Below, piece after piece: positions 2,252 through 7,070 of a DNA stretch of 9,458 bases. The notes under the pieces were generated by a model. The model did no database searches. It had not been told where the DNA came from and was given only the letters and a program-made list of their open reading frames with translations. The stretch is taken from NCBI GenBank assembly GCA_020853255.1, contig JADYZI010000350.1:1-9458 (forward strand). The letters are read 5' to 3'. The position numbers were made by a program, and so were the translations under genes. How positions within the stretch are numbered: position 1 is the first letter of the stretch; every line of letters starts with the position of its first letter. Source of the DNA: Acidobacteriota bacterium. Its GTDB lineage: Bacteria > Acidobacteriota > Blastocatellia > Pyrinomonadales > Pyrinomonadaceae.

Positions 2252-3571
2252 TTAATAAATCGTATAGTATGCGTTTATGTTCGTTTGAGCGTCGGTTCGC
2301 TGCCCTGTCGTTGAGGCGATCGGAACTATCACCAGTTCCTTCACAGCCCCTGTTGCTTGGTATGCGAGGCCGTAATGAACCCCCACGTAGAACGTCCCAT
2401 TGCCCATGTTGCCGCTCAAAGTATCGCTATTTGCAACATTTGTGGCCTCGGTGCCGTTGATCCAGACTTTCGTTTTATCCGCCGCAGTCGCTTGGGAGCG
2501 ATCCAGAACGGCGGCGGCCAGGTGATAGCTGGCCGAATACGCGGCATCCTTTCCGTTGTATGTACCGGCGTTTTCTTGGCCATAACCAAGTTTCGCTGCA
2601 CCGTCCGCAAAATAGCCCCTTGGCCCATTATTGTTATGTGCATAGAGAAATGCATCAGCCCCGACGTCGGTTAGTTTTGCCACCGAATAAATACTTGCCT
2701 TATCCGTCGCGGAAAGATTCAGCGAAACCGACATGTATTTAATATTCGCATCTGGCACCAGATCGATCTCATGATTGGTCAGGTCAAGTTGTGGCTGATT
2801 CCCTGCAGTCGTCTGTGACAGATTCACCGCATTGCCCGATTGGTCATACCAAGTTTTTACGAACAGATTACCGCCGGAGGCAAAACTCGTTGCGGCGGCC
2901 CAATCGAGATCATTGCCGGAGAATCCGATGTCCTGCTCGGTCGAGTCGCTCGAACGCCTGACGCGAACGGCTGAACCGGCGTAGGCATCACGCAGTTTCC
3001 GCAGTCCCCACGCCGCCGAGGCCGTGCCGCCAAGCAGCGTGACCAGGTCATAGACCGGCGGCGGCGGCGGTGTCAGCGGTCCGCCGCCGTGCACTAGAGT
3101 GACGATCAGGCCGCTCGCGGTCGAGCCGGAATTGTTGGTAACGTCAACGATGACCTCCTGCCCAGCAGTGTATTCGCCCGTTCCGGCCAGTGCCGCCGCG
3201 ACAGCCGCCGTCGCTGTCGTCCTCTCGTTCGCGTCTATCGTCGGCTTGGTCGTAAATACGCTCGTTCCGCCTATCCGCACATCGACCTCAAACGTCCCCG
3301 TCCCGTGTGCCACCAAACTCACCGGCACCGACTGGAGATTGATATTAAACGGCAGATGAAAGCTAAACACATTATTCGCCTGCGGAATAGTCGTCGTCCG
3401 ATCCCCGCAAACCAGCGGCAACGCCTGCAGGCTGCCTGAAATGCCCAGATCGTTCGGCACCACGCGGACGAATGTTCCCGTCGCCGGATCGATCGCGATC
3501 ATCTGTATCGCGTCGGCGTCCGGCGTTGTGTCCAGTGGTTTCCCATTCAAAAACGCAATTATATCGCCCAT
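2252..3571 (-). CDS. Putative tail fibre with arabinofuranosidase-B-like/LamG-like region
   Basis: A 439-residue protein. The N-terminal part (1-165) is probably virion-anchoring and beta-rich. A poly-Pro linker (TPPPPPV, about 167-173) follows. Residues 186-262 carry the stretch seen in alpha-L-arabinofuranosidase B catalytic-domain-like phage and bacterial proteins: LRKLRDAYAGSAVRVRRSSD, DIGF, LDW, then WYDQSGNAVNLSQ and QPQL. Residues about 263-439 resemble the second half of a LamG/concanavalin sandwich (ASIYSVAKL, KVWINGTE, GTFYVGVHYG, VKELVIVP). The ATG at 3571 is chosen over an in-frame ATG at 3646: it has GGAGGA 12 nt upstream, sits 2 nt after the preceding stop, and avoids a 75-nt overlap with an Arg-rich N-terminus. 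Inferred role: glycan binding at the tail tip. Catalysis is not shown. Confidence 0.78.
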   Translation of the reverse strand: MGDIIAFLNGKPLDTTPDADAIQMIAIDPATGTFVRVVPNDLGISGSLQALPLVCGDRTTTIPQANNVFSFHLPFNINLQSVPVSLVAHGTGTFEVDVRIGGTSVFTTKPTIDANERTTATAAVAAALAGTGEYTAGQEVIVDVTNNSGSTASGLIVTLVHGGGPLTPPPPPVYDLVTLLGGTASAAWGLRKLRDAYAGSAVRVRRSSDSTEQDIGFSGNDLDWAAATSFASGGNLFVKTWYDQSGNAVNLSQTTAGNQPQLDLTNHEIDLVPDANIKYMSVSLNLSATDKASIYSVAKLTDVGADAFLYAHNNNGPRGYFADGAAKLGYGQENAGTYNGKDAAYSASYHLAAAVLDRSQATAADKTKVWINGTEATNVANSDTLSGNMGNGTFYVGVHYGLAYQATGAVKELVIVPIASTTGQRTDAQTNINAYYTIY

Positions 3572-3573
3572 AA

Positions 3574-5292
3574 TTATGAATCTTCCTCCAGCACCTCGCC
3601 ATCGCCGAACAGCAGATCGCCGTCGCCCGTCAACTCGTTCGTCCAAAGCAGGAGCTTGAAATATCTATTGTCCGCGGCCGTGTCGATCGACAGATCTGTC
3701 GCCTCCAGCACCACAAAGCCCTTGTCCGTCCAGCCGGGCAGCGAATGGGTCAGCCGCACGCGATCGCCCGGTAGAACGGGCAGCGTTTGCGGCATTCCAA
3801 CAAATTCACATACGCGCGGGCTGGTCCGCATTTTCGCGTAGTGCCGCAGGTTCGTCAGGCCCTGCCAGCGGTTCACATTCCCGACGAATACAGTCTCTTC
3901 GATAATCCGGCCGGCCAGTTCCTGCAGCTCCGTCACGTCGTAATACAACTGCGGGTCAAACTTTTCCAGATACCGCGAGTCCAGATCGCGGCCCTCGGCA
4001 ATAAACCGATTCGGCAGGCTAAGCAGCTCCTGCTGCGTAAACCTTGGCGATGATTTGAAAGTGTTCTTTACGATGTTCGCCTCGTCAAAATCAAAGCTCG
4101 AAGAGATCTGATCGATCGAAAAGAACCGCAGCGTCCCGTTCACGTCCTGGAAGCTCCCGTTGCAAGTGAACAGGACGGACTTCAAGAAGTCGTCAAATGA
4201 GGTCCGCTGGGTGAACGCGATATTTGACCGAAATCGCGGGATCGCCTCATTTTTTGGGTAAAGCCTATCCTGCGGAATGACCTGCAGGCTCACGCTCGTC
4301 GATGACCATTGGAGCCAAAATTGCGAATCGCCCGACGCATTTGTCCACTCAATTTTGACATCAACGTATTCATCCGCCGTCGCCGCCCATGTCGTCGTGT
4401 GCGTTCCGGCCGCGGCCTGATCTATCACCGGCGAACCGACCACATCATCTATCCACAGTTTGACGCTGTCGTTGTGAATGACCGTGATCGTGGTCGTTTC
4501 CGAATATTTGAACCGAATCTTGCCTTCCCAGCGGACGCTGAATGCCGTCGGCGTCAGGTTCAATGCAGGTGCACCGGTCGAAATATCGTACTGGATGACC
4601 GGATCGACCCGCTGCGATTTGAACGTATCAAAAGCCGCACCGTCGTAATATTTACCAGCCAACCCAACGCCGACGGGCAAGATCGTATAATCCGGCGTCA
4701 CCGTCTCGTCCGCAAACGCCCGGAGTGTATCCAGAGCGGCCCAATCTACGCGGGCCAACGCGTATCGGCGGATCTCGACACAACCAAACGCCAGCACATC
4801 GGCCGGGTTGACCAGCAGCACGCCCGCGGCTGTTACCGTGCCCGTGTCGTCGTAAATATCGCCAAGCTGGCAGGCATAAATTCCGGTCGTTCCCGTCGGC
4901 GGGTTTTCCTTTGTATCAAAATCTGGAATGCCGACCTCGGCTCCGTTCGGGCATTCCAGCCGCAGCCATGCTGTGTTCGAATGCGGCGTGTCCTGGTCAA
5001 ACACGGCGTCAACGCCCTGAACAGGATCTGCCGGGCCGGACGATTGTTTGCCCGGATGAAAAACATATTTCGCCGCCGGCCGGTTCGTGCCCCTGAACCA
5101 CACACCGAGCGGTCCCGACCAGCCTTTTCCAAACGCCTCGCCCAGCATTTGCTGCACTTTTACAATGTGCGTCGGGTTTGAACCAGTCACGATCGACTTC
5201 GCCAGATCACCGGCGATCACATGGTTCCCGAAAGCGACCTCAAGCACAAGGTCCTCCTGCCGCGTTCCTTTTAAATGATCGACGAATGTCAT
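3574..5292 (-). CDS. Tail-tip (gpJ/Phage-tail_3-like) protein with inserted PA14 domain
   Basis: A 572-residue protein. Residues 1-200 fit a tail-tip attachment N-terminus, ending in an NPADVLAFG...RVDWAALDTLRAFADE stretch like the 'NPA-x-V-x-x-x-L' region of gpJ-type tip proteins. Residues about 210-346 form a PA14-like domain (LAGKYYDG, VRWEGKIRFKYSETTTITV, DSVKLWIDD, EYVDVKIEW, LQWSS, IPQDRLYP). PA14 is a carbohydrate-binding beta-barrel known from toxins, adhesins and glycosidases. Residues about 365-445 return to a baseplate/tip hub pattern (FDDFLKSVLFTCNGSFQDVNGTLRFFS, NIVKNTFKSSPRF, NRFIAEGRD), as in Phage-tail_3 proteins, followed by a beta-rich C-terminus. The PA14 module thus interrupts the tip fold. 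The start ATG lies just outside the left inverted repeat. The nearest Shine-Dalgarno-like GGAGG (5319-5323) is 26 nt away, too far for normal use, so initiation may now be weak or depend on other elements. Confidence 0.8.
   Translation of the reverse strand: MTFVDHLKGTRQEDLVLEVAFGNHVIAGDLAKSIVTGSNPTHIVKVQQMLGEAFGKGWSGPLGVWFRGTNRPAAKYVFHPGKQSSGPADPVQGVDAVFDQDTPHSNTAWLRLECPNGAEVGIPDFDTKENPPTGTTGIYACQLGDIYDDTGTVTAAGVLLVNPADVLAFGCVEIRRYALARVDWAALDTLRAFADETVTPDYTILPVGVGLAGKYYDGAAFDTFKSQRVDPVIQYDISTGAPALNLTPTAFSVRWEGKIRFKYSETTTITVIHNDSVKLWIDDVVGSPVIDQAAAGTHTTTWAATADEYVDVKIEWTNASGDSQFWLQWSSTSVSLQVIPQDRLYPKNEAIPRFRSNIAFTQRTSFDDFLKSVLFTCNGSFQDVNGTLRFFSIDQISSSFDFDEANIVKNTFKSSPRFTQQELLSLPNRFIAEGRDLDSRYLEKFDPQLYYDVTELQELAGRIIEETVFVGNVNRWQGLTNLRHYAKMRTSPRVCEFVGMPQTLPVLPGDRVRLTHSLPGWTDKGFVVLEATDLSIDTAADNRYFKLLLWTNELTGDGDLLFGDGEVLEEDS
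3584..3589 (-). promoter_or_regulatory. Ribosome binding site deciding the 3571 start
   Basis: GGAGGA on the minus strand lies 12 nt before the ATG at 3571, inside the last codons of the upstream tip gene. It supports 3571 rather than the upstream in-frame ATG at 3646. Confidence 0.55.
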
Positions 5293-5293
5293 C

Positions 5294-5325
5294 TATATAT
5301 ATGGGATTTATATACTTACCTCCCT
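5294..5325. repeat. Left inverted repeat of the mom-like cassette
   Basis: This 32-bp stretch matches the reverse complement of 5895-5926 at 28 of 32 positions without gaps; mismatches are at positions 1, 14, 18 and 26. Its outer part is TATATATATGGGA and its inner part ATACTTACCTCCCT. It contains the TAA stop (5316-5318) and last codons of the mom-like gene. Its outer edge lies 1 nt beyond the tip-protein ATG. Confidence 0.75.
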
Positions 5326-5885
5326 AGCCTCCTGAATTTGTGCTTTGGAAACATGCCGAGAAACTCCGCACCCAATGCCAACATTTCAGCATGAGTTCGA
5401 GTCTTTGGCCCTGCTTTGCGAGATGTCAGCCGACCGTTGATCGTGTAACACGGTTGAGGCTTTGTCTCTCCAACGTAGTCCCAATTATCTGCTCTATAAA
5501 TGGCTCCTGAGTGTCCTCGCCACTTGTCGGCATAGGTTACGAGGCACGGCCAGATAAACCTGTCTATTAGCTTCCTTGAACGGGCGAGAAGAAAGGTCGC
5601 GGCGTTCTTTGGAATTGTTGGCTCAATCACAAGCCGTGAAAGACAAAGAACGCCATGAGGATCAGCCGGATAAGTAGCTTGTCCGGCACTTTTTGTAGGG
5701 GGTATCCACCAAGTCACGCCGACGCACTGCTCGTCAAAAATGTCGCCTTTCTTAAACAGACCGTGCAGATAGGTTGCGGTATTCGAGGCTCCTGCGGCGT
5801 AGTGATATTTCTCTATCAATCGACGTGCAGTTGTGATGCCTACGGGATGCGCTTCCCAATCTGATTTTCTAAGGCCGTCTTTCAT
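5316..5885 (-). CDS. Mom-like DNA adenine modification protein (GNAT fold)
   Basis: A 189-residue protein resembling phage Mu Mom and related phage GNAT-fold proteins. Mom converts adenine in phage DNA to a methylcarbamoyl-type N6 derivative, protecting the DNA from many restriction enzymes; it acts on phage DNA in the host cytoplasm. Family landmarks in order: EKYHYAAGAS (25-34), CVGVTWWIPPTKSAG (54-68), LSRLVIEPTIPKNAATFLLARS (82-103, the acyl-CoA-binding-like helix region), LVTYADKWRGHSGAIYRADNWDYVGET (115-141) and CYTINGR (146-152). The Y-H-Y and Y-A-D...G-H-x-G-x-I-Y...N-W sets are the most telling. Mu Mom is somewhat longer (about 240 residues). No good Shine-Dalgarno sequence precedes the ATG. 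The gene is flanked by inverted repeats and lower in GC than its neighbours, suggesting acquisition. No Com-like regulator is seen. It is read with the tail operon, so late expression is likely, as for Mu mom. Confidence 0.78.
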   Translation of the reverse strand: MKDGLRKSDWEAHPVGITTARRLIEKYHYAAGASNTATYLHGLFKKGDIFDEQCVGVTWWIPPTKSAGQATYPADPHGVLCLSRLVIEPTIPKNAATFLLARSRKLIDRFIWPCLVTYADKWRGHSGAIYRADNWDYVGETKPQPCYTINGRLTSRKAGPKTRTHAEMLALGAEFLGMFPKHKFRRLGR

Positions 5886-5894
5886 ATTTCAGAA

Positions 5895-5926
5895 AGGGAG
5901 TTAAGTATGTAATTCCCATATATATT
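5895..5926. repeat. Right inverted repeat of the mom-like cassette
   Basis: The reverse complement of this stretch matches 5294-5325 at 28 of 32 positions. It lies upstream of the mom-like ATG (5885), and its outer end overlaps the TAA stop (5925-5927) of the hub gene. A TATAAT hexamer on the minus strand (5924-5929) straddles its edge, but no -35 element stands at a suitable distance. Confidence 0.75.
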
Positions 5927-7070
5927 ATATAAGTTCCGGGTCATCGCCCGTGTCCCATTTCCGGTTGTGGCAAACGATGAACTTCTCCCGTGAATCGCCG
6001 TAGCAGTAAACCTTTTCGGCGTCGGTCGGGGCATCCATGGTGATCATCATCACGTCGGCCGTCTCGCCCGTCGGCCGCGAAAGCACGGCCAGCGTGTTCA
6101 CGATCCGTTTCTTCTGCACGCACAACACCGGGTTGCCCGCAATAAAATTCTCGACAGGCTCGCCCGTCGCGTGCTCCTGGTACCACAGCACCGGGTGCCT
6201 GAACGATGAATAACCGACCGCACCCGAGCTTGTCACCAGCTCCCAGATCGGCTCCTTCACGATCCGTACCGCCGCGATCGGGTAAAACTGCTTTCGCACC
6301 GGATTCCAGATCTCGTCTTCCTCGGTCACATAGGCCGCCATCTTCGGCCTCGGCTCGCCGTCCGCCGCTCTGACCAATACAAATTGATCCAGCCGCGGGC
6401 ATGGCGGGTGTATCGGCCCCGGATTTATCGGGTTGCCGCCGGTGCCGGGCACGTTTATATCCGGGTTGTTCCGGTGCTCCATCCCGCCGAAATGATGGGC
6501 GTTGTTGTCACCATCGCATCCGGCCGGCGACTTCAAAACGTGGTTGCATGTCAGCCGTGCCGTCGCCGAACCGCACGTTTTTGCGTCCTTATATTTGAAG
6601 CCGCACGTCAGGCTCAATGTCCGGTTGGCCACTATCAGCCCCGGAGCGATCGTGTCCGGTATCAGGTCGAACTTGATCTGCAGATCATCCGCATCGGGCC
6701 GCTGCACCGCACCCCGGAACCGCTCGACCCATTCGCTCAAGGCGTAATCGGCACCTCCCCGGTAATATCGCCCGATCACGGCCTCGGCCGTCCGCCACTT
6801 CTGCCAATAGGTCGCAACGTGCAGCCCAAGCACGCGATCAACGTTCTGGATCCCAACCGACACGCTGTTTACCGGCGATTCTATCGTCCGATTTATATCG
6901 CCGACGTTTTCCAGGTCGTTTGCATACACACCGCGGCCGGCGATGTTGAGCGGCGAGGTCGCAAAGCGGAACGTCGTCGCGTCCGGGAACAGCAGGTCGA
7001 TCGTGTGATCGACCTTGCGGTTCTGGCCCGCCATTATGTTCTGCATTGTTACCGAAAGCGTCTGGCCCAT
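5925..7070 (-). CDS. Tail hub/minor tail protein (gpL-like) with C-terminal Hint (intein-like) domain
   Basis: A 381-residue protein whose ATG directly follows the tape measure stop (TAAATG). Residues 1-195 fit a tail hub/minor tail protein of the lambda gpL or gene-transfer-agent hub type. Four cysteines (C156, C166, C175, C185; spacing C-x9-C-x8-C-x9-C) precede NN and FGG (189-190, 194-196), the arrangement that binds an Fe-S cluster in gpL. A Gly/Pro linker (about 205-223) leads to a Hint-like domain: Cys224 followed by V231-L232 at the block A spacing, GAVGYSSFRHPVL (283-295; HP of block B, with Ser in place of the usual Thr), and VYCYGDSREKFIVCHN (354-369), ending in the classic His-Asn. 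Arg370 rather than Cys/Ser/Thr follows and only 12 residues remain, so cleavage is more likely than splicing. The length of 146 residues suits a bacterial intein-like or Hint domain. The Hint call is from motif pattern alone. Confidence 0.75.
   Translation of the reverse strand: MGQTLSVTMQNIMAGQNRKVDHTIDLLFPDATTFRFATSPLNIAGRGVYANDLENVGDINRTIESPVNSVSVGIQNVDRVLGLHVATYWQKWRTAEAVIGRYYRGGADYALSEWVERFRGAVQRPDADDLQIKFDLIPDTIAPGLIVANRTLSLTCGFKYKDAKTCGSATARLTCNHVLKSPAGCDGDNNAHHFGGMEHRNNPDINVPGTGGNPINPGPIHPPCPRLDQFVLVRAADGEPRPKMAAYVTEEDEIWNPVRKQFYPIAAVRIVKEPIWELVTSSGAVGYSSFRHPVLWYQEHATGEPVENFIAGNPVLCVQKKRIVNTLAVLSRPTGETADVMMITMDAPTDAEKVYCYGDSREKFIVCHNRKWDTGDDPELI

Follow-up and report, generated by a model that had tools for sequence, protein, structure and literature searches.

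A mom gene between two tail genes very probably lies in a mobile insertion cassette with IS1595-family ends

Here we describe a 615-bp unit with a single gene, mom, that is inserted between two tail genes in the window, that is, the whole stretch of 9,458 bp of DNA that was analysed. The unit is very probably a non-autonomous transposon of the IS1595 family, or mobile insertion cassette (MIC), with mom as its cargo. Its ends are shared with a large set of elements, mostly in viral contigs, some of which carry an IS1595-type transposase, and its insertion site is empty in related contigs.

Of the inverted repeats listed for the window, the longest pairs positions 5295-5325 with 5895-5925 (31 nt, 90% complementary), so that the inverted repeats of 32 bp described in the original prediction are real. 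However, each arm is a composite of an outer 8-bp sequence, ATATATAT, and an inner 23-bp terminal inverted repeat that begins with GGGA. The two terminal repeats (5303-5325 and 5895-5917) are identical at 20 of 23 positions, and the copies of ATATATAT at 5295-5302 and 5918-5925 form a direct duplication, with 8 bp as the longest exact match between the flanks. The duplication was mistaken for inverted repeat because the 8-mer is palindromic, and the ends first assigned to the unit, 5294 and 5926, each lie one base beyond the duplications (5295, 5925). As ATATATAT is a low-complexity dinucleotide repeat, the window's own duplication carries little weight by itself. A pattern for the repeat core, GGGANTTAYATACTTAMCTCCCT, matches the window at these two places only, even when up to three mismatches are allowed, and has no match in 200 shuffles. 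The features at the insertion site are the following:

5295-5302, left 8-bp target duplication ATATATAT, an exact match to the right copy
5303-5325, plus strand, left 23-bp terminal inverted repeat, which holds the mom stop codon (repeat and pattern search)
5316-5885, minus strand, mom gene, 189 aa, co-directional with the tail operon (PF25680, phrog_1384, structure match)
5895-5917, minus strand, right 23-bp terminal inverted repeat (repeat and pattern search)
5918-5925, right 8-bp target duplication ATATATAT, its last base common to the stop codon of gene 5925-7070
5925-7070, minus strand, upstream tail-operon gene at the insertion site (the "hub" gene), 381 aa (61 homologues; no Pfam or PHROG match)
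3574-5292, minus strand, downstream tail-operon gene at the insertion site (the "tip" gene), 572 aa, with a PA14 domain (PF07691, 9.8e-13)

The element proper, 615 bp at 5303-5917, encloses exactly one intact ORF. Its GC content is below that of its flanks, as had been noticed (0.491 versus 0.563 in the rest of the window), and is lower than in any 615-bp stretch sampled every 5 bp outside the element. The repeats were also thought to supply the stop codon of the hub gene and to abut the ATG of the tip gene, which proved incorrect: the stop (5925-5927) and the start (5290-5292) of the flanking genes both lie outside the terminal repeats, whereas the stop codon of mom (5316-5318) does fall within the left one, 23 nt ahead of the ATG of the next gene. 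The element gave no match to a transposase, Pfam likewise detected none in the seven main ORFs of the 9,458-bp window, and the unit contains no recognisable transposase remnant.

The same ends occur elsewhere. Exact scans with the terminal repeat matched 30 viral-contig and 17 genome-contig stretches, and a looser scan matched at least 120 viral-contig stretches; the exact matches, the at least 120 looser viral matches and the window make up a family sample of 160 loci. Every outward-facing pair of repeats 120-3,500 bp apart was tested (n = 119). Of these pairs, 81 are flanked by an 8-bp duplication that has no more than one mismatch and is exact in 76, in all of which the longest exact match between the flanks is exactly 8 bp, and at six shifted control positions a duplication was found for none of the 119 pairs. 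The remaining 38 pairs lack an 8-bp duplication, and some of them are cross-combinations of neighbouring ends. Counting duplicates, 75 of the 81 duplication-flanked elements are found in viral loci and five in genome loci, and one is that of the window. The exact duplications are 83% A+T, the first base being mostly A or C and the last mostly T or G, and in other contigs the same ends enclose different genes. The original prediction had suggested a small mobile unit that has no transposase of its own and possibly uses a TA-rich target, and these shared ends and duplications support it; two of the things it had proposed to look for, a target duplication (8 bp, ATATATAT in the window) and other loci with the same repeats around different cargo, were both found, the latter in many contigs.

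Which transposase recognises these ends? In locus L021, an element of 1,542 bp with the same ends and the target site duplication (TSD) AAAATAAT on both sides encodes a 313-aa transposase with an IS1595 DDE domain (PF12762, 2e-46) and a zinc ribbon (PF12760, 1.3e-10). L021 is the one transposase-bearing member that was run through Pfam, and the others were matched to it by tblastn: 19 of the 81 elements match its transposase over more than 150 aa, and the 15 listed besides L021 are 60-72% identical to the L021 protein. The IS1595 family usually produces 8-bp TSDs and has a single transposase gene, with an N-terminal zinc finger in all but one group (PMC8101967). The 8-bp duplications and the DDE_Tnp_IS1595 domain with its N-terminal zinc ribbon in L021 resemble this description and, judged by sequence, the ends of the window unit are IS1595-family ends. 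Unlike a family member in the strict sense, the window unit has no transposase, and as a unit that encodes mom alone it does not qualify as an IS.

Among annotated plasmid transposases the nearest, on an Entomospira plasmid, is 44.5% identical, and the best match in the phage collection is 37% identical. The Entomospira plasmid IS was considered as a named parent of the ends and rejected, as there are no comparable ends there. A deltaproteobacterial MAG contig carries a 2,027-bp element with the same ends (L096:2910-4936), in which a 305-aa ORF resembles the transposase of L021. The 8-mers on either side of this element have two mismatches.

Transposase-bearing and transposase-less forms can be found side by side: the L022 contig has a transposase-bearing copy together with a transposase-less unit, and the L161 contig has one together with a short remnant unit. 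Across 40 hand-chosen cassette-bearing viral contigs, which include L022 and L161 and may be partial, an IS1595-like transposase is encoded in six, with close and near full-length matches in four (60-68% identical, one match with a TGA), a match of 36% in another and fragments in the last. Because the transposase is present in just six of 40 cassette contigs, possibly partial ones, the enzyme may often come from outside.

Has the window unit simply lost its transposase, so that it is now a dead remnant of a mom-carrying IS1595-type transposon and an immobile resident gene? Such an origin would explain the absence of a transposase from the element, is consistent with the finding of the window's unit at no second site among close relatives, and has a parallel in the short units of L017 and L161, which retain no more of the transposase than 19 and 26 N-terminal residues and look like intermediates. 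We nevertheless regard it as unlikely, as both ends and the 8-bp duplication of the window unit are intact and a recognisable transposase remnant is missing from it. In addition, the compact one-gene layout is a repeated one: the 59 units without a transposase match, reduced to 51 unique units by removing seven duplicates and one composite, contain a unit-spanning ORF in 43 cases (ORFs were picked by rule and some may be spurious). A gain or loss of a transposase-less unit can moreover be seen in a near-identical phage pair. Around the site, L162 and L195 share 97-99% identity and differ by one 605-bp cassette and one copy of the TSD: L162 has one unit flanked by CAATATAG, and L195 has that unit and a second one of 605 bp, with CAATATAG on each side. 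The two tandem units with their common target CAATATAG occupy L195:477-1956, the only unit of L162 lies at 997-1862, and the arrangement suggests that arrays can form by the stacking of cassettes. Another sign of movement is seen in L016, where one unit is inserted within the terminal repeat of another element.

Homologous recombination between shared ends or flanks, for instance by phage recombinases, might instead be the main route of exchange, transposition being rare or ancient. Several loci are in favour of this. L019 and L170 are 99.97% identical over 5,650 bp and then continue into different cassette material, L019 does not have the left flank of L016 and has no matching duplication, and 38 of the 119 pairs are without a duplication. 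The pattern in L019, L170 and L016 points to recombination as a process that is probably also at work. As the main route we consider it quite improbable, because the 76 exact 8-bp duplications differ in sequence and empty sites occur at unrelated loci, which together are a signature of transposition. One such locus is L011, where a C5-methylase unit (L011:2249-2959) interrupts a gene whose homologues in L203, L107 and L133 (71-74% identical) are uninterrupted at the junction. The interrupted gene and the methylase that L137 has as cargo are themselves related (64%), and possibly one modification gene was here swapped for another.

At the insertion site of the window unit, single-protein scans of the viral contigs with mom and both tail genes found no relatives, nor did tblastn of both tail genes against the phage collection. 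A search of the viral contigs with an alignment of 25 homologues of gene 5925-7070, of which 61 were found, yielded three related contigs (L226-L228), with a homologue of this gene that is 45-49% identical and a homologue of gene 3574-5292 that is 57-65% identical. In all three the two tail genes are directly joined, twice with an overlap (ATGA and TAATG) and once with a gap of 2 nt, and none of the three loci has a mom match. It follows that the window element was inserted into a conserved junction of two genes, in agreement with the proposed insertion between two tail genes. As the upstream gene of the nearest site relatives shows no more than 45-49% identity, the insertion carries no date. 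Two outcomes had been named in advance as speaking against mobility, relatives that all carry mom here without repeats, and repeats that belong to the operon's conserved coding or RNA structure and occur nowhere else; neither was seen. A regulatory or RNA structure of the operon, unrelated to mobility, would fit the complementarity of the arms and the position of one of them across the mom stop codon, but it is in effect refuted by the three related operons, which have the genes joined with neither repeats nor mom, and by the same ends around different genes in other contigs.

The tail region has two further features of interest. The gene at 2252-3646 has an arabinofuranosidase-type domain (PF09206, 5.6e-8), and its product and that of gene 3574-5292, with its PA14 domain, perhaps bind cell-surface sugars. 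MAGs of Pyrinomonadaceae, Acidobacteriota and Pirellulales are named as the source of some homologues of gene 5925-7070, which hints weakly at the group of the host.

The cargo itself belongs to the Mom family, in support of the Mom-like gene first proposed: the 189-aa product of the ORF at 5316-5885 (minus strand) matches PF25680 (9.4e-21) and phrog_1384 (3e-24), and its AlphaFold2 model (mean pLDDT 84) finds Mom of phage Mu as best PDB match (8bv8, E 1.9e-8). The two proteins share family and predicted fold, but the identity is about 20% over the structural alignment. Mom modifies the DNA of phage Mu against restriction, and the window protein would likewise introduce into phage DNA a modification, at adenines, that protects against restriction. 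The mom gene of Mu itself is not known as a terminal-repeat cassette. In cultured phages, tblastn with the window mom gave 101 records, each less than 60% identical. Elsewhere 50 mom loci were found, 25 of which were checked (24 distinct, two being identical), and none of the 25 has paired ends with a duplication; L038 and L039, identical in sequence, have one recognisable end, and no second end was found there. The possibility that mom is generally part of a mobile unit was rejected on account of these 24 distinct loci. For the same reason, mom seems usually to travel by other means and to have been captured here.

What do the other transposase-less units carry? The spanning ORF has its stop codon at most 22 nt from the unit end, in or at the repeat, in 32 of 43 units and its start 33-47 nt from the other end in 28 of 43. 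DNA-modification genes occur in 13 of the 51 unique units, 12 recognised by Pfam and one (L087) by PHROGs, where Pfam covered 45 units and the unscanned L020, L022, L116, L140, L148 and L195 are counted as negative. The recognised cargo is:

Mom: window, L110 and L027 (L027 below the Pfam cut-off)
Dam: L009 and L114
C5 methylase: L011 and L137
N6/N4 methylase: L105, L141, L147 and L168
MT-A70, split over two ORFs: L025
DNA methyltransferase: L087 (PHROGs, 7.5e-45)
NUDIX: L014
MazG-like, below the Pfam cut-off: L005
PTPS: L107
Nucleoside deoxyribosyltransferase: L085
Cysteine-dioxygenase-like PHROG: L120
TnpB: L181

Most of the remaining cargo ORFs have no Pfam match. As a control we used 139 of 140 ORFs of 75-260 aa drawn randomly from 612 flanking ORFs, those of the window excluded; among the 25 listed of the 26 families that they matched, none is a modification family. 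Modification genes in 12 of 51 units versus at most one in 139 flanking ORFs gives a Fisher p of 5e-7, for a control that is rough, as some ORFs are spurious frames and cargo ORFs were picked by hand, control ORFs by rule. The units are placed between genes in 27 cases and within genes in 16, and the flanking genes are co-directional in 28 and opposite in 21, figures affected by longest-ORF calling, which picks antisense frames in these contigs and even in the window, so that we draw no site or orientation preference from them.

Several individual units deserve mention. The 1,178-bp unit at L181:2157-3334 has these ends, the TSD ATATTTTT and a 377-aa TnpB (PF01385, 1.4e-22; PF07282, 2.5e-19), a gene of RNA-guided-nuclease type inside IS1595 ends, and of the two ORFs listed for it none besides TnpB reaches 85 aa. 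A small-protein family that starts with MHYxNGREAKNGDK is the cargo of seven units (L010, L020, L116, L128, L140, L162 and L188) with differing target duplications; it has no Pfam match (L010, L128, L188) and no PHROG match (L010). Related 188-aa cargo proteins are found at different target sites in L191:1000-1604 (phrog_12600, 6.3e-72) and L195:477-1081. A larger unit, L107:9791-10945, holds a 215-aa ORF and a 6-pyruvoyl tetrahydropterin synthase homologue (PF01242, 5.3e-12), which may be linked to 7-deazaguanine DNA modification. In L025, L110, L120, L137, L140 and L147 some of the terminal repeats read GATGACTCCC or its ATG variant, and ORFs of such units can begin within the repeat (Met-Thr-Pro...), so the terminal repeat itself may supply the start codon of the cargo.

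How might the window unit move and act? An IS1595-family DDE transposase supplied from elsewhere, by a host IS, a co-infecting phage or the same phage, would bind both ends in trans and insert the unit at an 8-bp AT-rich target. The signs of such mobilisation are indirect, namely the same ends on transposase-bearing elements, an IS1595-like transposase in six of 40 cassette contigs and the one pair of phages that differ by a cassette. With a stop codon on one side of the insertion and a start codon on the other, the tail genes are intact, and since mom has the direction of the operon it is probably read with them; termination of mom within the repeat, at a distance of 23 nt from the following start, may spare the translation of the following gene. 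The Mom product would then modify adenines of the phage DNA, with protection from restriction as the outcome.

More broadly, and as a tentative proposal, a gene-cassette economy may be common to environmental phages, with one IS1595-type end as its basis, in which compact, mostly one-gene units without a transposase hop between phage genomes by means of transposases of hosts or other phages and stack in tandem or nested arrays at AT-rich sites. Anti-restriction methyltransferases, Mom, nucleotide-pool enzymes and even TnpB would be the cargo. The gain and exchange of single accessory genes by phages, and especially of counter-defence genes, is mostly ascribed to illegitimate and homologous recombination; if the proposal is true, these cassettes would represent the viral equivalent of integron cassettes and give phages a general means of gaining or swapping counter-defence genes. 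The recognisable end and the 8-bp duplication make the process traceable, which allows a list of cassettes to be drawn up, a search for empty sites and tests of movement in trans. The DNA-modification genes in 13 of 51 unique units hint at what phages repeatedly re-acquire and, if movement in trans holds, the transposase of a host or a rival phage would be a shared resource in the spread of anti-restriction genes.

Finally, the window unit can be compared with known kinds of non-autonomous or gene-carrying elements. MITEs are likewise short and non-autonomous with IS ends; to our knowledge they carry no full gene, whereas the window unit holds an intact ORF of 189 aa. Transporter ISs (tIS) have passenger genes besides the transposase (PMC3129680, PMC7986276) and thus resemble the window unit in the passenger gene between IS ends, but they retain the transposase, which the window unit lacks, and it is therefore not a tIS. 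MICs are defined by two inverted repeats with no transposase nearby and usually a target duplication (PMC3913671), and the window unit has two inverted repeats, no transposase within the 9,458-bp window, a target duplication and mom as passenger gene. Known examples are MIC231 of Bacillus cereus and, on Proteeae plasmids, mic-qnrD (PMC3913671, PMC3129680); the IS231A transposase is reported to be able to mobilise MIC231A1 in trans (PMC3913671). The original prediction knew of no described element of this kind. Since its ends are IS1595-family ends the window element, as a MIC, has precedent, and in this respect MICs are against that statement; in its favour, our literature search found no IS1595-type cassettes in phages, which, with incomplete coverage, is weak evidence of novelty. 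Like the window unit, MICs place IS-family inverted repeats around a passenger gene, with no transposase and with a target duplication. MIC231 and mic-qnrD are, however, described in bacterial chromosomes and plasmids, the ends of MIC231 are those of IS231 (IS4 family), and the mic-qnrD duplication is 2 bp, whereas units of the window type have IS1595-type ends and 8-bp duplications, lie mostly in viral contigs and have DNA-modification genes as frequent cargo. MICs as such are already known, and what seems new here is an IS1595-type, phage-borne variant.
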